The translations under genes were made by a program, and so were the position numbers. From Lebetimonas sp. JH292 (GTDB lineage: Bacteria > Campylobacterota > Campylobacteria > Campylobacterales > Nautiliaceae), in the NCBI RefSeq assembly GCF_000523275.1, contig NZ_ATHQ01000003.1, positions 1-40,149 on the forward strand: a DNA stretch of 40,149 bases. Reading direction: 5' to 3'. Under the pieces are notes generated by a model that saw only the letters and a program-made list of their open reading frames with translations, was not told the DNA's origin and did no database searches. This document shows, in pieces, positions 7,423 through 40,149 of the stretch (positions are counted from its first letter, which is position 1; every line of letters begins with the position of its first letter).

Positions 7423-8328
7423 ATGCAGGAAATTAACATAAATGAAATTAAAAATCCGGAATATGTATTGGTCGGTAATAAAAAAATGAAGTTGGATGAT
7501 TTGATAAATGATTATGTTGAGTTAAAATATTCCAATAAAAAAGCGTTAAAAAAATATCTGCAGGAACAGCAGTTAAAACCGTATCAGGCCGAGCTTATCA
7601 AACTGCAAAATTATTTGGAAAAAAATTCTGTAAGAATGGTTGTTTTATTTGAAGGAAGAGATGCAGCAGGCAAAGGCGGGACGATTAGAAGAATTGTAAG
7701 ATATATGAACGAAAAGCACTACCGTGTGGTTGCCCTTGGAAAACCGAGCGATGTTCAAAAAACCCAGTGGTATTTTCAAAGGTATGTTGAGCAGTTTCCA
7801 AGAGGCGGAGAAATGGTTTTATTTGACCGTAGCTGGTACAACAGGGCAATGGTTGAACCCGTTTTTGGATTTTGCACGCAGCAGCAGTATGAGACTTTTA
7901 TTGAAGAATGCCCTATGTTTGAAAAATCCCTTGTAATGGAAGGGACAATTTTAGTTAAGATATATCTTTCTATTTCAAAAGAAGAACAGGCTAAAAGGTT
8001 TGAGAAAAGAAGAAGAGATCCATTGAGGCAGTGGAAACTAAGTGAAATAGACCTGCAGGCGCAGGATAAATGGGATGAATTTACAGAAATGAAATATAAA
8101 ATGCTAAAAGCAACTCACACGCATTACGCCCCTTGGACTGTTATTAGAAGTGATGATAAGCATTTGGCAAGGTTAAATGCTATGAAAGTAATTTTAAATG
8201 CCGTTGATTATAAAGAACGCAACAATGAACTTAATTATGTGCCTGATGAAGGAATAGTCGTAAGCGGTGCAAGGGAAATAGAGATTATGGAAGCAGACAG
8301 AATCAGAAGCGGAAAGTTTGTAAGCTAA
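7423..8328 (+). CDS. ppk2: Polyphosphate kinase 2 (PPK2), copy 1
   Basis: A 301-residue PPK2. Walker A is GRDAAGKGGT at residues 78-87, Walker B is FDRSWYNRA at 134-142, and the lid segment FEKRRRDPLRQWKLS follows at about 193-207. The one-domain layout is that of class I PPK2, which mainly transfers phosphate from polyphosphate to GDP or ADP, and can run in reverse. Campylobacter jejuni has one such gene; this window has a second, distinct copy at 35501-36409. A GGGGG-containing purine stretch stands 8-10 bases before the ATG. Which nucleotide it prefers cannot be read from the sequence. Confidence 0.93.
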   Translation: MQEININEIKNPEYVLVGNKKMKLDDLINDYVELKYSNKKALKKYLQEQQLKPYQAELIKLQNYLEKNSVRMVVLFEGRDAAGKGGTIRRIVRYMNEKHYRVVALGKPSDVQKTQWYFQRYVEQFPRGGEMVLFDRSWYNRAMVEPVFGFCTQQQYETFIEECPMFEKSLVMEGTILVKIYLSISKEEQAKRFEKRRRDPLRQWKLSEIDLQAQDKWDEFTEMKYKMLKATHTHYAPWTVIRSDDKHLARLNAMKVILNAVDYKERNNELNYVPDEGIVVSGAREIEIMEADRIRSGKFVS

Positions 8329-35500: not shown

Positions 35501-36409
35501 ATGAAAACGATAATGCAGAGTTTAGAAGAGCTTAAAAAAAATATTGAAAATCCGGAATTAAAAACAAAAATAAATTTGGTTGAAGATGCATTTAGAAAAT
35601 TAAGGACAAAATCCGGTCTAAGTGGGCTGGTTAAAAAGAAAAAATTAAGAAAAATTTTAAAAACAGTTGAATATGAAGAGGAATTAATAAAATTACAAAT
35701 AGAACTGATTAAACTTCAAAACTGGGTTTTTGAAAATAAAAAAAGAGTTATGATTATTTTTGAAGGAAGGGACGCCGCAGGAAAAGGCGGAGCTATTAAA
35801 AGATTTGCCGAGCATTTAAATCCAAGAAAATACAGGGTTGTGGCTCTTCCAAAACCTACAGAAGTTGAATCGGGGCAGTTTTATTTTCAAAGATATTTCA
35901 GACATTTGCCAGATCCCGGTGAAATAGCTTTTTTTGACAGAAGCTGGTATAACAGGGCGATTGTTGAGCCTGTTTTCGGATTTTGTACAAAAGAGCAGTA
36001 TGAAAAATTCATCAGAGAAGTCCCGGAAATGGAAAATGCCCTAATAGATGACGGAATAATATTAATTAAATTCTGGTTTTCTATTTCAAAAGAAACCCAA
36101 AAAAGAAGATTTGAAGAGAGAATGAGGAATCCTTTAAAACAGTGGAAACTCTCACCTGTTGATAAAAAAGCCCAGGAGCTTTGGGATCAGATAACATATT
36201 ATAAAGAGGAGATGTTTTCCAAAACACATACCAGCTATTCACCTTGGATTATTGTAAATTCCAATGATAAAAAAACCGCAAGGTTAGAAAGTATCAGATA
36301 TGTGCTTTCCCAGATCCCTTATGAAGGTAAAGAAAAGGCAAAAGTTTCACTCCATCCCGACCCGGATATAGTCCAAAGGTATCACAGAAAAAATATTCAA
36401 TTGGATTAA
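35501..36409 (+). CDS. ppk2: Polyphosphate kinase 2 (PPK2), copy 2
   Basis: A 302-residue PPK2. Walker A GRDAAGKGGA is at 89-98, Walker B FFDRSWYNRA at about 144-153, and the lid FEERMRNPLKQWKLSP follows. LPKPTEVESGQFYFQRYFRHLPDPGE resembles the usual class I loop more than copy 1 does, while copy 1 reads GKPSDVQKTQWYFQRY. The N-terminal 60 residues differ strongly from copy 1, so the two are diverged paralogues or one was acquired, not a recent duplication. Substrate preference (ADP or GDP) may differ between the two. Confidence 0.93.
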   Translation: MKTIMQSLEELKKNIENPELKTKINLVEDAFRKLRTKSGLSGLVKKKKLRKILKTVEYEEELIKLQIELIKLQNWVFENKKRVMIIFEGRDAAGKGGAIKRFAEHLNPRKYRVVALPKPTEVESGQFYFQRYFRHLPDPGEIAFFDRSWYNRAIVEPVFGFCTKEQYEKFIREVPEMENALIDDGIILIKFWFSISKETQKRRFEERMRNPLKQWKLSPVDKKAQELWDQITYYKEEMFSKTHTSYSPWIIVNSNDKKTARLESIRYVLSQIPYEGKEKAKVSLHPDPDIVQRYHRKNIQLD

Positions 36410-36783
36410 TCAGCGGTTTTTAAGGGCTTCTAAATAATCCCTGTATTTTTTTTCTATTTCCTCTTATTTCCTCAAATTTAGAAAAATAAAAATATAATTT
36501 ATAAGCATTTTGAGAGGTAAAACTTAAAAAGTAGGTGTTTCATTTACAGAAAACAGGAATAAAACACTCTTTTTCCTATTTTGGATTAGCAATGAGAGTT
36601 ACTTACATCTGAGATGAAAATGAATTTGATTTTTGCTTTTCTTTTTGTTATTATTTATTAAATAATGATAAACTTTTATAGATACAAAAGTTTAACGATG
36701 ATGAAATTTATATTCATGTAAGTACAAAAACCTTTTAGAATAAAAATAATCCATTTGACAGTTTCTTTAGGAGAATGCGAGAT
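36410..36783. other. Non-coding gap at island edge, with a C-terminal gene remnant
   Basis: The first 54 bases read on the minus strand as a 17-codon end of a gene (EEIEKKYRDYLEALKNR, stop at 36410-36412). An in-frame stop lies directly before it, next to a direct repeat of GAGGAAATA. The rest is AT-rich, with a short palindrome at 36650-36666 (ATTATTTA-T-TAAATAAT) and a TTGACA at 36755-36760. No intact gene is visible. This marks the border to the restriction-modification genes. Confidence 0.5.
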
Positions 36784-36912
36784 ATGAATAAAAAAACAAA
36801 AAATAACGCTCATTTAGAGGGAAGCATATACAAACATTTTGCATATCTTTCTAATAAATCATATCTAAACAGTTTGAATATGAACAAGTTAGGCACAATA
36901 AAAAAAACATAA
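36784..36912 (+). CDS. Small 42-residue ORF directly before the Dam gene
   Basis: From the ATG at 36784 a 42-codon frame runs to a TAA at 36910-36912, and the Dam ATG follows with no gap. AGGAG at 36769-36773 lies ten bases before the ATG, and TTGACA stands upstream. The product is basic and Asn/Lys-rich (opens MNKKTKNNAHLEGSIYKHF). No family is recognised. It could be a leader, a small regulator of the methyltransferase, or chance; the exact abutment favours translational coupling. Confidence 0.45.
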   Translation: MNKKTKNNAHLEGSIYKHFAYLSNKSYLNSLNMNKLGTIKKT

Positions 36913-37851
36913 ATGTATAATATAAAACAAATAGATAAAATAGTAAAACCGTTTATAAAATGGGCCGGTGGGAAAACACAGTTATTAGATGAAATTAATA
37001 ATCTAATTCCTGATTACATTAAACAAACTCAATTTACATATATTGAGCCGTTTGTTGGTGGAGGTGCTGTTCTGTTTTGGATTTTACAAAAATACCAAAA
37101 TATTAAAAAAGCGATAATCAATGATATAAATGCAGATTTAATCAACGCTTACAAAACAATAAAAGAAAATGTTGAAGAATTAATATCCGTTTTAAAAATA
37201 TGGGAAAAGGAATACCATTTGTTAAAAGACAAACCTGAAGAAAAAAAAGAATACTATTATACAAAGAGAACTTTATTTAATAGTAGAAAATCTGATAAAA
37301 CAATTCAAGCAGCACTGTTTATATTTCTTAATCGAACTTGTTTTAACGGTTTATATCGTGTTAACAGAAAAAATGAATTTAATGTGCCAATTGGAAGTTA
37401 TAAAACACCAATGATTTGTGATGAAAAAAATTTAAGAGCCGTAAATAAAGTTCTTCAAAAAGTAATTATATTAAACAGTGATTTTGAAGAAACGTTGAAA
37501 TATGCAAAAGGAAATACACTGTTTTATTTTGATCCACCTTATAAACCTTTAAGCAAAACATCAAGTTTTAATTCTTATGTAAAAGATGAATTCGATGATA
37601 ACGAACAAATAAGGCTTGCTAAATTTTGTAAAAAAATTGATTTACTCGGATATCAATGGATATTAAGTAATTCAGATGTTAAAGGAAAAGATCCAAATAA
37701 CAATTTTTTTGATGAGTTGTATAGTGAATTTAAGATAAAAAGAGTTTTAGCAAGAAGGAATATTAACTCAAAACCAAATAAAAGAGGAGAATTAACAGAA
37801 TTGTTAATTACAAATAATGCTTATGAAAAAATTATGTCAATTGCTCAATAA
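36913..37851 (+). CDS. DNA adenine methyltransferase, Dam/DpnM class (GATC)
   Basis: A 312-residue class alpha N6-adenine methyltransferase. FIKWAGGKTQLL at 14-25 and the SAM-binding EPFVGGGAV at 45-53 come first, IFLNRTCFNGLYRVN is the DNA-contact part at about 137-151, and the catalytic DPPY lies at 207-210. These are the marks of the Dam/M.DpnII group, which methylates adenine in GATC. Together with the endonuclease that overlaps its 3' end by 35 bases it protects the host from cutting. The GATC target is inferred from the family and the DpnII-type partner. Confidence 0.92.
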   Translation: MYNIKQIDKIVKPFIKWAGGKTQLLDEINNLIPDYIKQTQFTYIEPFVGGGAVLFWILQKYQNIKKAIINDINADLINAYKTIKENVEELISVLKIWEKEYHLLKDKPEEKKEYYYTKRTLFNSRKSDKTIQAALFIFLNRTCFNGLYRVNRKNEFNVPIGSYKTPMICDEKNLRAVNKVLQKVIILNSDFEETLKYAKGNTLFYFDPPYKPLSKTSSFNSYVKDEFDDNEQIRLAKFCKKIDLLGYQWILSNSDVKGKDPNNNFFDELYSEFKIKRVLARRNINSKPNKRGELTELLITNNAYEKIMSIAQ

Positions 37852-38719
37852 AACAGAAGATGAACTTTTTGAAGAGATTACATCATCTTTTAAAGATAAG
37901 ATTACACAATGGGATTATTTTGTAAACTGGAAAAAAGTTTTACAAAATATTGAGCCGATTGAAAAAGAATTGAACCTGCTTAATTATCTTATTGGTAAAA
38001 AGAATTTACATAAAGAAATCATTGATTTATTGCAGAAATATCCAGAAACAATTAAAGCAATTCCACTACTTCTTGCAATTAGAAACAAATCTTTGAAGGT
38101 TTTGATAGATACAAGAAATTTTATTTATAGGGAATTTAATTTTTCAAAAAAAAGTTATTCAAAAACTGAAATAAAAACATTTGCTGATTTTATATTAAAG
38201 AGTGGTTTGGGAGATCTTTTACAAGATAAGAAAATTAAGAATTTGGTTGATTATGCAATCGGTGTTGAAGTTGGTTTGGATAGCAATGGCAGAAAAAATC
38301 GTGGTGGAACTTTAATGGAAAATATTGTGGAAGAATTTGTAAGAGACACAACAAAAGAATTAAACATTAAATATATGCCACAAGCGACCGCAAAGAAAAT
38401 TAAAGACAAATGGAATATTGATGTTAAAGTTGATAAATCATCAAGAATTATTGATTTTGCTGTTAACAAAAACGGTAAGCTTTATTTTATCGAGGTTAAT
38501 TTTTATGGTGGCGGGGGTTCCAAACTTAAATCTACTGCAACTGAATATATTAGAATGAATGATTATTGGAACAACCAAGGCATTGAATTTATTTGGATAA
38601 CCGATGGAGCCGGCTGGAAATCTACTCTAAAACCATTGAGAGAATATTTTGATAAAGCGGATTATCTTTTGAATTTAGAAATGTTAAGAAACGGAGTATT
38701 AAAAAGGATATTGAAATAG
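37817..38719 (+). CDS. DpnII-family type II restriction endonuclease (GATC)
   Basis: A 300-residue endonuclease. It has the DpnII marks: WDYFVNWKKV near residue 32, GVEVGLDSNGRKNRGGTLME at about 149-168, and IIDFAVNKNGKLYFIEVNFY at 211-230, where the DxnExN pattern is a variant PD-(D/E)xK site, followed by GGGGSKLKST. It is predicted to cut unmethylated GATC. It starts inside the methyltransferase gene (ATG at 37817 or 37823) and lacks a clear ribosome site, so its expression is probably coupled to the methyltransferase, which would favour protection before cutting. Confidence 0.9.
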   Translation: MLMKKLCQLLNKTEDELFEEITSSFKDKITQWDYFVNWKKVLQNIEPIEKELNLLNYLIGKKNLHKEIIDLLQKYPETIKAIPLLLAIRNKSLKVLIDTRNFIYREFNFSKKSYSKTEIKTFADFILKSGLGDLLQDKKIKNLVDYAIGVEVGLDSNGRKNRGGTLMENIVEEFVRDTTKELNIKYMPQATAKKIKDKWNIDVKVDKSSRIIDFAVNKNGKLYFIEVNFYGGGGSKLKSTATEYIRMNDYWNNQGIEFIWITDGAGWKSTLKPLREYFDKADYLLNLEMLRNGVLKRILK

Positions 38720-39075
38720 AATACCGAGGTTATGAAGTCGAACAATTAAAAAATGGAAATAAAATTGTTATTACAAAACCTGGTGGAAAGACAGTTTACG
38801 GATTCTCGTTTTTATTTATAATCCGAAAGAAAGTGGATTATGGCAAATAACACCTATCGAACTTATTGATTTATTAGAACGAGTAAAAAATGGTGAAGAA
38901 CCAAATGAATTTATAGAAGAAATTGACCTATTAAAATTTAATACTGGAGAAAGCTCTGTTAAAGGCTTATAAATGGATTTGGGGGCAAGAAGATGTAAAC
39001 TATCCAAATGGTGAAGGACGTGAGATGTCGTGGAAAAGTATTGAAGAATTTAGAGAAAAAATTAAAAATGATTAA
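38710..39075 (+). pseudogene. Broken small gene between endonuclease and second methyltransferase
   Basis: Three pieces join into one protein-like sequence of about 117 residues. Frame 1 from about 38710 reads IEYRGYEVEQLKNGNKIVIT up to about 38805. A different frame carries NPKESGLWQITPIELIDLL to about 38955. The first frame then returns with LLKAYKWIWGQEDVNYPNGE to a TAA at 39073-39075. Two opposite shifts of one base (near 38802-38816 and 38948-38956) restore the frame. No ATG begins the first part. The family is not recognised. It may be a real pseudogene or two sequencing errors. Confidence 0.65.
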
Positions 39076-39907
39076 ATCCTATTTTAAATCAAAAGATAAA
39101 AAATTTATCTTATTACACGGAGATGTATTTGAATTATTACCGCAATTTGATTTCAAGTTTAATATGGTTTTTGCCGATCCGCCATATTTTTTATCAAACG
39201 ATGGTTTAACCATAAAAAACGGGAAAATTACCAGTGTAAATAAAGGTAAATGGGATAAATCTAAAGGTTTTGAATATATAAATGATTTTAACCGCAGATG
39301 GCTAAAACTTGTTCGTGATAAGATGAAAGATGACGCTACTATTTGGATAAGTGGCACTATGCACAATATTTTTAGTATTGGCCAGATTTTAACAGAGTTA
39401 GATTTTAAAATTCTTAACATAATTACTTGGCAAAAAACAAATCCGCCGCCAAACTTTTCGTGCCGTTATTTTACACACTCAACAGAACAAATCATCTGGG
39501 CGAGAAAAAATGCAAAAGTTCCACATTATTTTAACTATGAATTGATGAAAGAAATAAACGGTGGAAAACAAATGAAAGATGTTTGGACATTACCAGCCAT
39601 AGCAAAATGGGAAAAATCGTGCGGAAAGCATCCAACACAAAAACCGTTATCCGTATTAACAAGAATAATTCTTGCTTCAAGTAAACGAGGAGATTGGGTT
39701 TTAGATCCATTTACCGGAAGTAGCACTACCGGAATAGCTGCAAATTTGTTAGAAAGGAAATTTTTGGGAATTGATATTGAGGATGAATATCTTAAAATAA
39801 GTAAAAACAGAAAACTTGAAATAGAAAACAAACAAATCTTTAATAAATACCACAACAAATTACAAAACTTTATAAATATCAAAAAATTCACAACCCTCAA
39901 CTCTTAA
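39068..39907 (+). CDS. DpnA-like DNA adenine methyltransferase (beta class)
   Basis: A 279-residue methyltransferase from the ATG at 39068. The motif order DPPY (37-40, FADPPYFLS) first and the SAM motif LDPFTGSSTTG near the C-terminus is that of the beta class, and HPTQKPLSVL lies between. DpnA, the second methyltransferase of DpnII systems, also methylates GATC, including on single-stranded DNA, which helps protect DNA taken up by transformation. A start at 39008 would add 20 residues overlapping the broken gene, but the ATG at 39068 overlaps that gene's TAA (ATGATTAA), a coupling arrangement. Confidence 0.88.
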   Translation: MIKSYFKSKDKKFILLHGDVFELLPQFDFKFNMVFADPPYFLSNDGLTIKNGKITSVNKGKWDKSKGFEYINDFNRRWLKLVRDKMKDDATIWISGTMHNIFSIGQILTELDFKILNIITWQKTNPPPNFSCRYFTHSTEQIIWARKNAKVPHYFNYELMKEINGGKQMKDVWTLPAIAKWEKSCGKHPTQKPLSVLTRIILASSKRGDWVLDPFTGSSTTGIAANLLERKFLGIDIEDEYLKISKNRKLEIENKQIFNKYHNKLQNFINIKKFTTLNS

Positions 39908-39965: not shown

Positions 39966-40057
39966 CTTATTCTTTTGTGTTCTAAATTTGAATAGGAAGA
40001 AGTCTATACATCTTTTGAAAAAGATGTCAATAAGAGTATCCGGATATAGTAAAAACT

Positions 40058-40122
40058 GTGTAAATCCTAATATAGATGTTGAGAGATGATAAAATAAAAA
40101 AATAAAAGTAAAGGATTTACAC
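40058..40122. repeat. 11-bp inverted repeat before the last ORF, possible IS end
   Basis: GTGTAAATCCT (40058-40068) is mirrored exactly by AGGATTTACAC (40112-40122), 43 bases apart. The right arm contains AAGGA, the ribosome site for the ATG at 40123, so pairing would hide it. Terminal repeats with GTGTAAA are seen in IS256-type elements, and contigs often break in insertion sequences. The rest of the gap 39908-40057 shows no gene. Confidence 0.45.
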
Positions 40123-40149
40123 ATGAGTATTTTAAACATTGAAGAATAT
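40123..40149 (+). CDS. Start of an unidentified gene, cut by the window end
   Basis: An ATG with AAGGA seven bases upstream opens nine codons (MSILNIEEY) before the window ends. Too little is present for a family call. A transposase is possible given the inverted repeat just before it, but nothing in the nine residues shows this. Confidence 0.4.

Follow-up and report, generated by a model that had tools for sequence, protein, structure and literature searches.

The window analyzed here is a stretch of 40,149 nucleotides from Lebetimonas sp. JH292. Between a nuclease gene and a methylase gene in it lies a stretch, positions 38710 to 39075, that reads as protein only if frames 1, 0 and 1 are followed in turn, which raises the question of whether it is a coincidence of frames, an assembly error, a working short gene, or what remains of a gene lost from a restriction-modification (RM) operon. 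An earlier note, made from the letters alone, had taken it for a small gene with two compensating frameshifts. The surrounding genes make up the set of a DpnII/MboI-type RM system, with a Dam-type methylase (PF02086), a DpnII nuclease (PF04556) and a DpnA-type methylase (PF01555). The features of the locus, with the broken gene called X, are as follows:

36913 to 37851, plus strand: DpnM-like Dam-family adenine methylase gene, intact (PF02086, E = 2.6e-70 over the whole profile; TIGR00571 dam, 309.7 bits)
37817 to 38719, plus strand: DpnII-type restriction endonuclease gene, intact and full length (PF04556, E = 8.2e-99, profile positions 2 to 277 of 278)
38710 to 38802, plus strand: X remnant, piece A, family positions 34 to 60, clear from 38722 (53.4 bits; 44.4 bits from 38722 on)
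38802 to 38951, plus strand: X remnant, piece B, family positions 67 to 83 and about 102 to 134 (17.5 and 20.5 bits, together E = 1.7e-10)
38953 to 39075, plus strand: X remnant, piece C, family positions about 138 to 175 (67.2 bits, E of about 1.3e-19 to 1.5e-19)
39068 to 39907, plus strand: DpnA-like N6/N4 methylase gene, intact (PF01555, E = 9.1e-60), its start overlapping the X stop

Translation of the window gave three open pieces, at 38662 to 38847, 38763 to 38969 and 38935 to 39072. When a profile built from 63 intact relatives of X was run against the 1,850 translated segments of the window, all three pieces were matched separately and in order, with full-sequence E values of 2.3e-15, 1.7e-10 and 1.3e-19, while the next-best segment reached only 0.97. 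The matched profile positions were 17 to 61 for piece A, 68 to 88 and 104 to 135 for piece B, and 137 to 174 for piece C. A chance coincidence of frames was dropped because of these three separate, collinear matches, and the proposal that the pieces form one protein-like sequence is borne out by them; the relatives did not match one piece only. Both the profile match and the neighboring methylase place the window copy in the X family. The matches thus identify 38710 to 39075 as the broken remnant of a conserved gene of about 175 codons, which is intact at the same place of the operon elsewhere. Stop codons occur in every frame of the region, and no single open frame of about 175 codons with a start is present. 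Piece A lacks the start codon and the first 33 or so X codons and joins the end of the nuclease gene; piece B lies in a different frame and has an internal gap of 18 codons; and piece C carries the most conserved motif of X, KAYKWIWGQEDVNYPNGEGR, together with the stop codon. As had been noted, piece C runs into the DpnA start, the ATG at 39068, and a second in-frame ATG for this methylase is found at 39008. Singly, the pieces had no convincing match in Pfam (best E = 0.12), and joined they had none.

The damage could be sized, since the spacing between conserved anchors is nearly constant in intact X. G60 and N73 lie 13 codons apart in all but one of the 63 intact rows, the exception having 14; the window has 20 nt between them, which is 19 nt shorter. 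From W80 to G115 all 63 rows have 35 codons and the window has 17, a loss of 18 codons or 54 nt. The 8 codons between G133 and K141, again constant in 63 of 63 rows, are reduced to 16 nt, 8 nt shorter. The 19- and 8-nt losses account for the two frame changes, the third internal deletion is in frame, and the net internal loss comes to 81 nt, a multiple of three. At the 5' end, Y37 is preceded by 35 or more residues in intact rows, and about 33 N-terminal codons are missing in the window; no ATG, GTG or TTG start lies near Y37 in the frame of piece A, which, followed upstream, enters the last part of the nuclease gene. Therefore, the frame pattern 1-0-1 described by the earlier note stands at its place, but the two changes are deletions rather than simple point shifts, and they are not the full damage, as the 5' end and the 54-nt in-frame stretch are missing too. 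What remains is well preserved. Of 29 residues invariant in the 63 rows, 26 are retained and all 26 are unchanged, N19, D66 and K94 falling in the lost parts; 12 of the 18 near-invariant residues are retained, likewise all unchanged, with H84, I87 and D90 gone. The best intact row (L009) is identical to the window at 87 of 109 retained positions. Deletions without substitutions at conserved sites suggest that the gene was lost recently.

Where X begins deserved attention, given that piece A can be aligned to the profile through 38671 to 38721 as well, as far as family position 17, with an N near the invariant N19. The bases upstream of 38722 encode the conserved tail of the nuclease, which ends at the same point as its relatives. 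A true X start inside the nuclease gene was rejected because, besides being conserved nuclease tail, the stretch 38671 to 38721 scored -0.4 bits against the profile when taken alone, and the tails of nine other nucleases substituted upstream of piece A gave 45.6 to 54.1 bits, compared with 53.4 for the window and 44.4 with no tail. In view of these tests N19 was counted as lost, and X was counted only from family position 34 (38722), the bases from 38710 onward being shared with the last nuclease codons. Recognizable X sequence thus begins at the nuclease stop codon.

A translated search with the joined pieces, as the earlier note had suggested, found 101 relatives in genome contigs, and the best 80 loci were studied. 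Of these best 80 of 101, 77 had open frames of 165 to 205 codons by our own start rule; the short frames were those of L076 (71 codons) and L045 (125), both interrupted inside the match, and L087 (148), short at its 5' end. The alignment holds 63 of the 80, with 17 near-duplicate, cut, interrupted or ambiguous loci omitted; it has a mean column identity of 49% and draws on Bacteroidota, Bacillota, Omnitrophota, Spirochaetota, archaea and others. A DNA methylase of Dam or N6/N4 type lay within 2.6 kb of X in 77 of the best 80 of 101 loci, and in the other three (L037, L066 and L073) the fetched contig extended only 315, 538 and 23 bases upstream. Thirty of the best 80 of 101 had DpnM, DpnII, X and DpnA in this order on one strand, and three further loci (L082 to L084) bring the count to 33, their downstream methylase matching DpnA over a short stretch only. 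This placement of homologues between DpnII and DpnA makes it very probable that an intact gene X once linked the RM genes of the window, as had been claimed, and it supports the view of X as an accessory part of such systems. As the loci were collected by similarity to the window gene, close relatives are over-represented among them.

The nucleases beside X varied. By clustering, 39 of the best 80 of 101 loci had DpnII near X, 13 had a nuclease from a group about 175 residues long and 9 one from a group about 205 residues long; in the other 19 none was recognized, although blastp found a DpnII in one of them (L036). The one member scanned from the 175-residue group (L040) matched PF20472 (PD-(D/E)XK_11) at 20.3 bits, under the cutoff of 23.7, and the one scanned from the 205-residue group (L065) matched MutH at 46.3 bits, over the cutoff of 23. 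X also stands beside PD-(D/E)XK_11-like and MutH-like nucleases, so that its place as a companion of this kind of RM system extends beyond the DpnII type. Beside the X of L012, the match to DpnII is split over two frames, the reverse of the case in the window. More distant forms of X lie between a Dam-type methylase and DpnII (L121), after a Dam-type methylase (L122 and L123), or downstream of a complete operon on the opposite strand (L145 and L147, with L143 at the same place as L147), while the complete operon of L146 had no X match. X-like proteins still further removed, again near methylases, were observed at L071 5155 to 5769, L041 6441 to 7001 and L124 1381 to 2091 (combined profile E = 4e-6, 0.024 and 1e-10, respectively); an X gene is close by in two of the three cases, and such proteins hint at a larger putative superfamily.

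Next, we considered how common X is. Among 397 genomes of the window's class, DpnII was found in 81 and X in 6, one of these being the genome of the window. Among 393 genomes of the order of Bacteroides sp. An322 (L018; Bacteroidales), DpnII was found in 27 and X in 8, and 5 of the 27 DpnII-positive genomes (G439, the chosen center of this sample, G516, G663, G720 and G820) had both on one contig within about 1 kb. X is therefore an optional part of DpnII systems. A search of 100 related genomes matched X only in the window's own genome and, very weakly, in G082 (E = 0.0059). Decayed copies were also seen: within the window's class, G323 has X split into two half-frames, and in G400 a C-terminal stub of X precedes an intact DpnII gene, an arrangement that might be due to misassembly.

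To ask where the operon genes came from, quick maximum-likelihood trees with SH-aLRT support only were compared. The window's DpnM and DpnA pair with those of Draconibacterium (L010) with supports of 96 and 95, and the two DpnA proteins are 75% identical. The nuclease pairs with that of a member of the Desulfobacterales (L061; support 99, 63% identity) and is 31 to 39% identical to those of X-bearing operons of Bacteroidota; the tree tool flagged it as a long branch. In AU tests of clades picked after the trees had been seen, grouping of the nuclease with L010 was rejected (p = 5.4e-48), as was its placement within the 42-row clade of L009 and L010, the latter with a p of only 0.011, and grouping of DpnA with L061 was rejected as well (p = 6.6e-5). 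Both the nuclease tree and the DpnA tree keep L010 together with 19 rows from the order to which the window belongs, which makes the window the exception in the nuclease tree. In the X tree the remnant is nearest L009 and L010, with no strongly supported pair for the window. Overall, these comparisons show that the predicted nuclease of the window differs in ancestry from its two methylases. Bacteroidales operons such as those of L009, L010 and L018 share the order DpnM-DpnII-X-DpnA with the window; in these three the methylases are 59 to 75% identical to those of the window, X is intact, and the nuclease is only 32 to 39% identical.

A genome of the same genus (G001) is collinear with the window, at 83% DNA identity, up to position 36469 and then carries other genes, and a class-wide search found no DpnII match in it; compared with G001, the operon (36470 to 39907) thus has the appearance of an insertion. 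Immediately 5' of the Dam-type methylase gene lies an open frame of 45 codons (36775 to 36912), perhaps a leader or another remnant. Further upstream, the gene at 35501 to 36409 has two to three matches in each of five related genomes (E up to 1e-60); it and the gene at 7423 to 8328 both resemble genes of the polyphosphate kinase 2 family. The assembly is 99.68% complete in 5 contigs, and the window is the whole of contig C3. Its last 100 or so bases (40051 to 40149) are repeated where contig C4 ends (92% identical) and partly in C1, so that the assembly probably broke there at a repeat. A small frame starting MSILNIEEY runs off the window's end.

How, then, was X broken? We think it probable that the remnant derives from an operon with an intact X in which an exchange of the nuclease gene cut off the 5' end, with small deletions occurring afterward. 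In the ancestry of this genome, the nuclease gene would have been exchanged with a junction inside X, removing its first 33 or so codons; X, no longer translatable, would then have lost short segments, and the other parts of the operon would have remained undamaged. That the nuclease is of foreign ancestry and complete at its end, and that X sequence runs from its stop codon, all points to an exchange that overwrote the X start. No intermediate with the new nuclease and an intact X at this position was found. Moreover, the locus of the closest nuclease relative, L061, itself has an intact X, so that the swap is not necessarily what caused the loss. It is conceivable, at a distinctly lower likelihood, that X was dispensable and decayed on its own, the nuclease's ancestry reflecting an unrelated earlier or later event. 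The scarcity of X in the DpnII-positive genomes sampled (both near in 5 of 27; X in 6 and DpnII in 81 of 397 genomes of the class) fits such a course, as do the two-frame copy of G323 and, if not misassembled, the stub of G400; against it, the missing 5' end of X abuts the stop of the foreign nuclease.

Two other accounts deny that the gene was lost. That all 26 retained invariant residues are unchanged, and that the net internal loss is divisible by three, would suit a functional short X made by frameshifting or as a split protein. Nevertheless, we regard this as very improbable: the frame of the first piece has no start codon close to its beginning, the invariant D66 and K94 and the near-invariant H84, I87 and D90 are gone, and spacings this short occur in 0 of 63 intact rows. 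Indels do occur in assemblies, and yet an error in an intact X is the least credible account, with 19, 54 and 8 nt missing as well as about 33 codons that are replaced by the end of another gene, with the three neighboring operon genes undamaged, and with an assembly of such completeness and so few contigs. The X of the window is a dead gene and, in itself, a case of ordinary decay. The operon that remains, with its nuclease and both methylases, presumably still restricts and protects a putative GATC site.

To approach what an intact X might do, the pieces, the joined pieces and intact X proteins were compared with Pfam, NCBIfam, PHROGs and PADLOC, with weak matches only. PF21003, the PH-like N-terminal domain of the endonuclease NucS, was matched by three of four intact X at E = 0.034 to 0.14, below its 23.9-bit cutoff, and NF003270 (NucS) locally by 7 of the 63 members, with a best E of 0.0056. 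PADLOC MTase_II was matched by one of four intact X (L010; E = 0.0037, 14.4 bits), PHROG 11668 by the X of L009 (E = 0.015), an NCBIfam phosphoserine phosphatase by the joined pieces (E = 0.03), and a HAD-type hydrolase by 2 of 63 members (E = 0.0034); the remaining family matches were near E = 0.1. In a comparison with RM controller (C) proteins, no helix-turn-helix family was among the Pfam matches of four intact X at E up to 10. Solved structures searched by sequence gave one NucS match (E = 1.2), and matches to a Chlorella virus DNA ligase (E = 0.05) and isethionate sulfite-lyase (E = 0.5) were taken as chance. An AlphaFold2 model of the intact X of L009 was confident, with a mean pLDDT of 93.0 and a pTM of 0.89, and Foldseek found nothing for it in the PDB at E ≤ 0.001. 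The best VIA-align Z score was 4.2. The rows of this comparison include a ribosome-inactivating protein, DsbG and IscU; R.PabI, a half-pipe restriction enzyme, recurred in several rows at Z of 3.1 to 3.8, within noise. The only clear fold match was an uncharacterized protein of Streptomyces phage BillNye (TM 0.56, probability 1.00).

Phages were reached by other routes as well. Searches of plasmids and phages with tblastn at E = 0.01 returned nothing for the joined pieces or the X of L009, and viral contigs gave no X match. At E = 10, the X of L042 matched 37 phage records, 35 of them from Streptomyces phages, at E = 0.1 or worse among the 30 matches listed. Both phages tested matched the X profile, Braelyn gene 223 with 34.1 bits and Blueeyedbeauty gene 190 with 28.1 bits (E = 1.1e-12 and 8.1e-11 for a database of one). 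These lone relatives of X are as follows:

L135, 2375 to 2977: Streptomyces phage Braelyn
L136, 2498 to 3091: Streptomyces phage Blueeyedbeauty

Both proteins belong to PHROG 11668, and no methylase or nuclease is annotated within 2.5 kb of them, where most genes are hypothetical. They may offer a lead to counter-defense. To our knowledge, the pneumococcal DpnII locus consists of just dpnM, dpnA and dpnB. The accessible text on this Streptococcus pneumoniae system mentions only these three genes (PMC3573125), and it describes a single locus for a Dam-type methylase, a DpnA-type methylase and the DpnII nuclease, as in the window; the window has, in addition, the X remnant between nuclease and DpnA. 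The literature searched, including the accessible parts of PMC3573125 and PMC5608340, holds no description of X; subscription papers were mostly outside reach, so we do not claim that the family is undescribed.

The company that X keeps, three nuclease groups yet nearly always a methylase, leads us to favor a function connected with the methylase or with the site that these enzymes share. An intact X might be a DNA-associated accessory acting with either of these rather than a subunit of one nuclease. Gene order makes such a tie, for example in methylation sensing or in the modulation of restriction, a possibility that we put somewhat short of even. X could instead be the effector itself, a second nuclease or a base-excising enzyme, as might be supposed from loci that pair X with a methylase yet show no recognized nuclease (none by cluster in 19 of the best 80 of 101, several at contig ends), from the recurrence of R.PabI and from the local NucS resemblance. 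We find this unlikely, since both resemblances lie within the noise stated by the tools and a recognized nuclease is already present in 61 of the best 80 of 101 loci. More doubtful still is that X served as a site- or methylation-sensing module of a GATC defense with interchangeable nucleases (DpnII, MutH-like or PD-(D/E)XK_11-like), acquired on its own by Streptomyces phages, perhaps to act as a decoy; in this genome X would have become useless once the new nuclease had arrived and would now be disappearing.

In summary, the broken copy in the window exposes a small methylase-adjacent family that ranges from Bacteroidales to archaea, accompanies three nuclease groups and has relatives in phages. 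If X regulates or licenses restriction, it would be an overlooked component in a minority of the well-studied DpnII/MboI-type operons, and the window would be a snapshot of nuclease exchange within a restriction operon.
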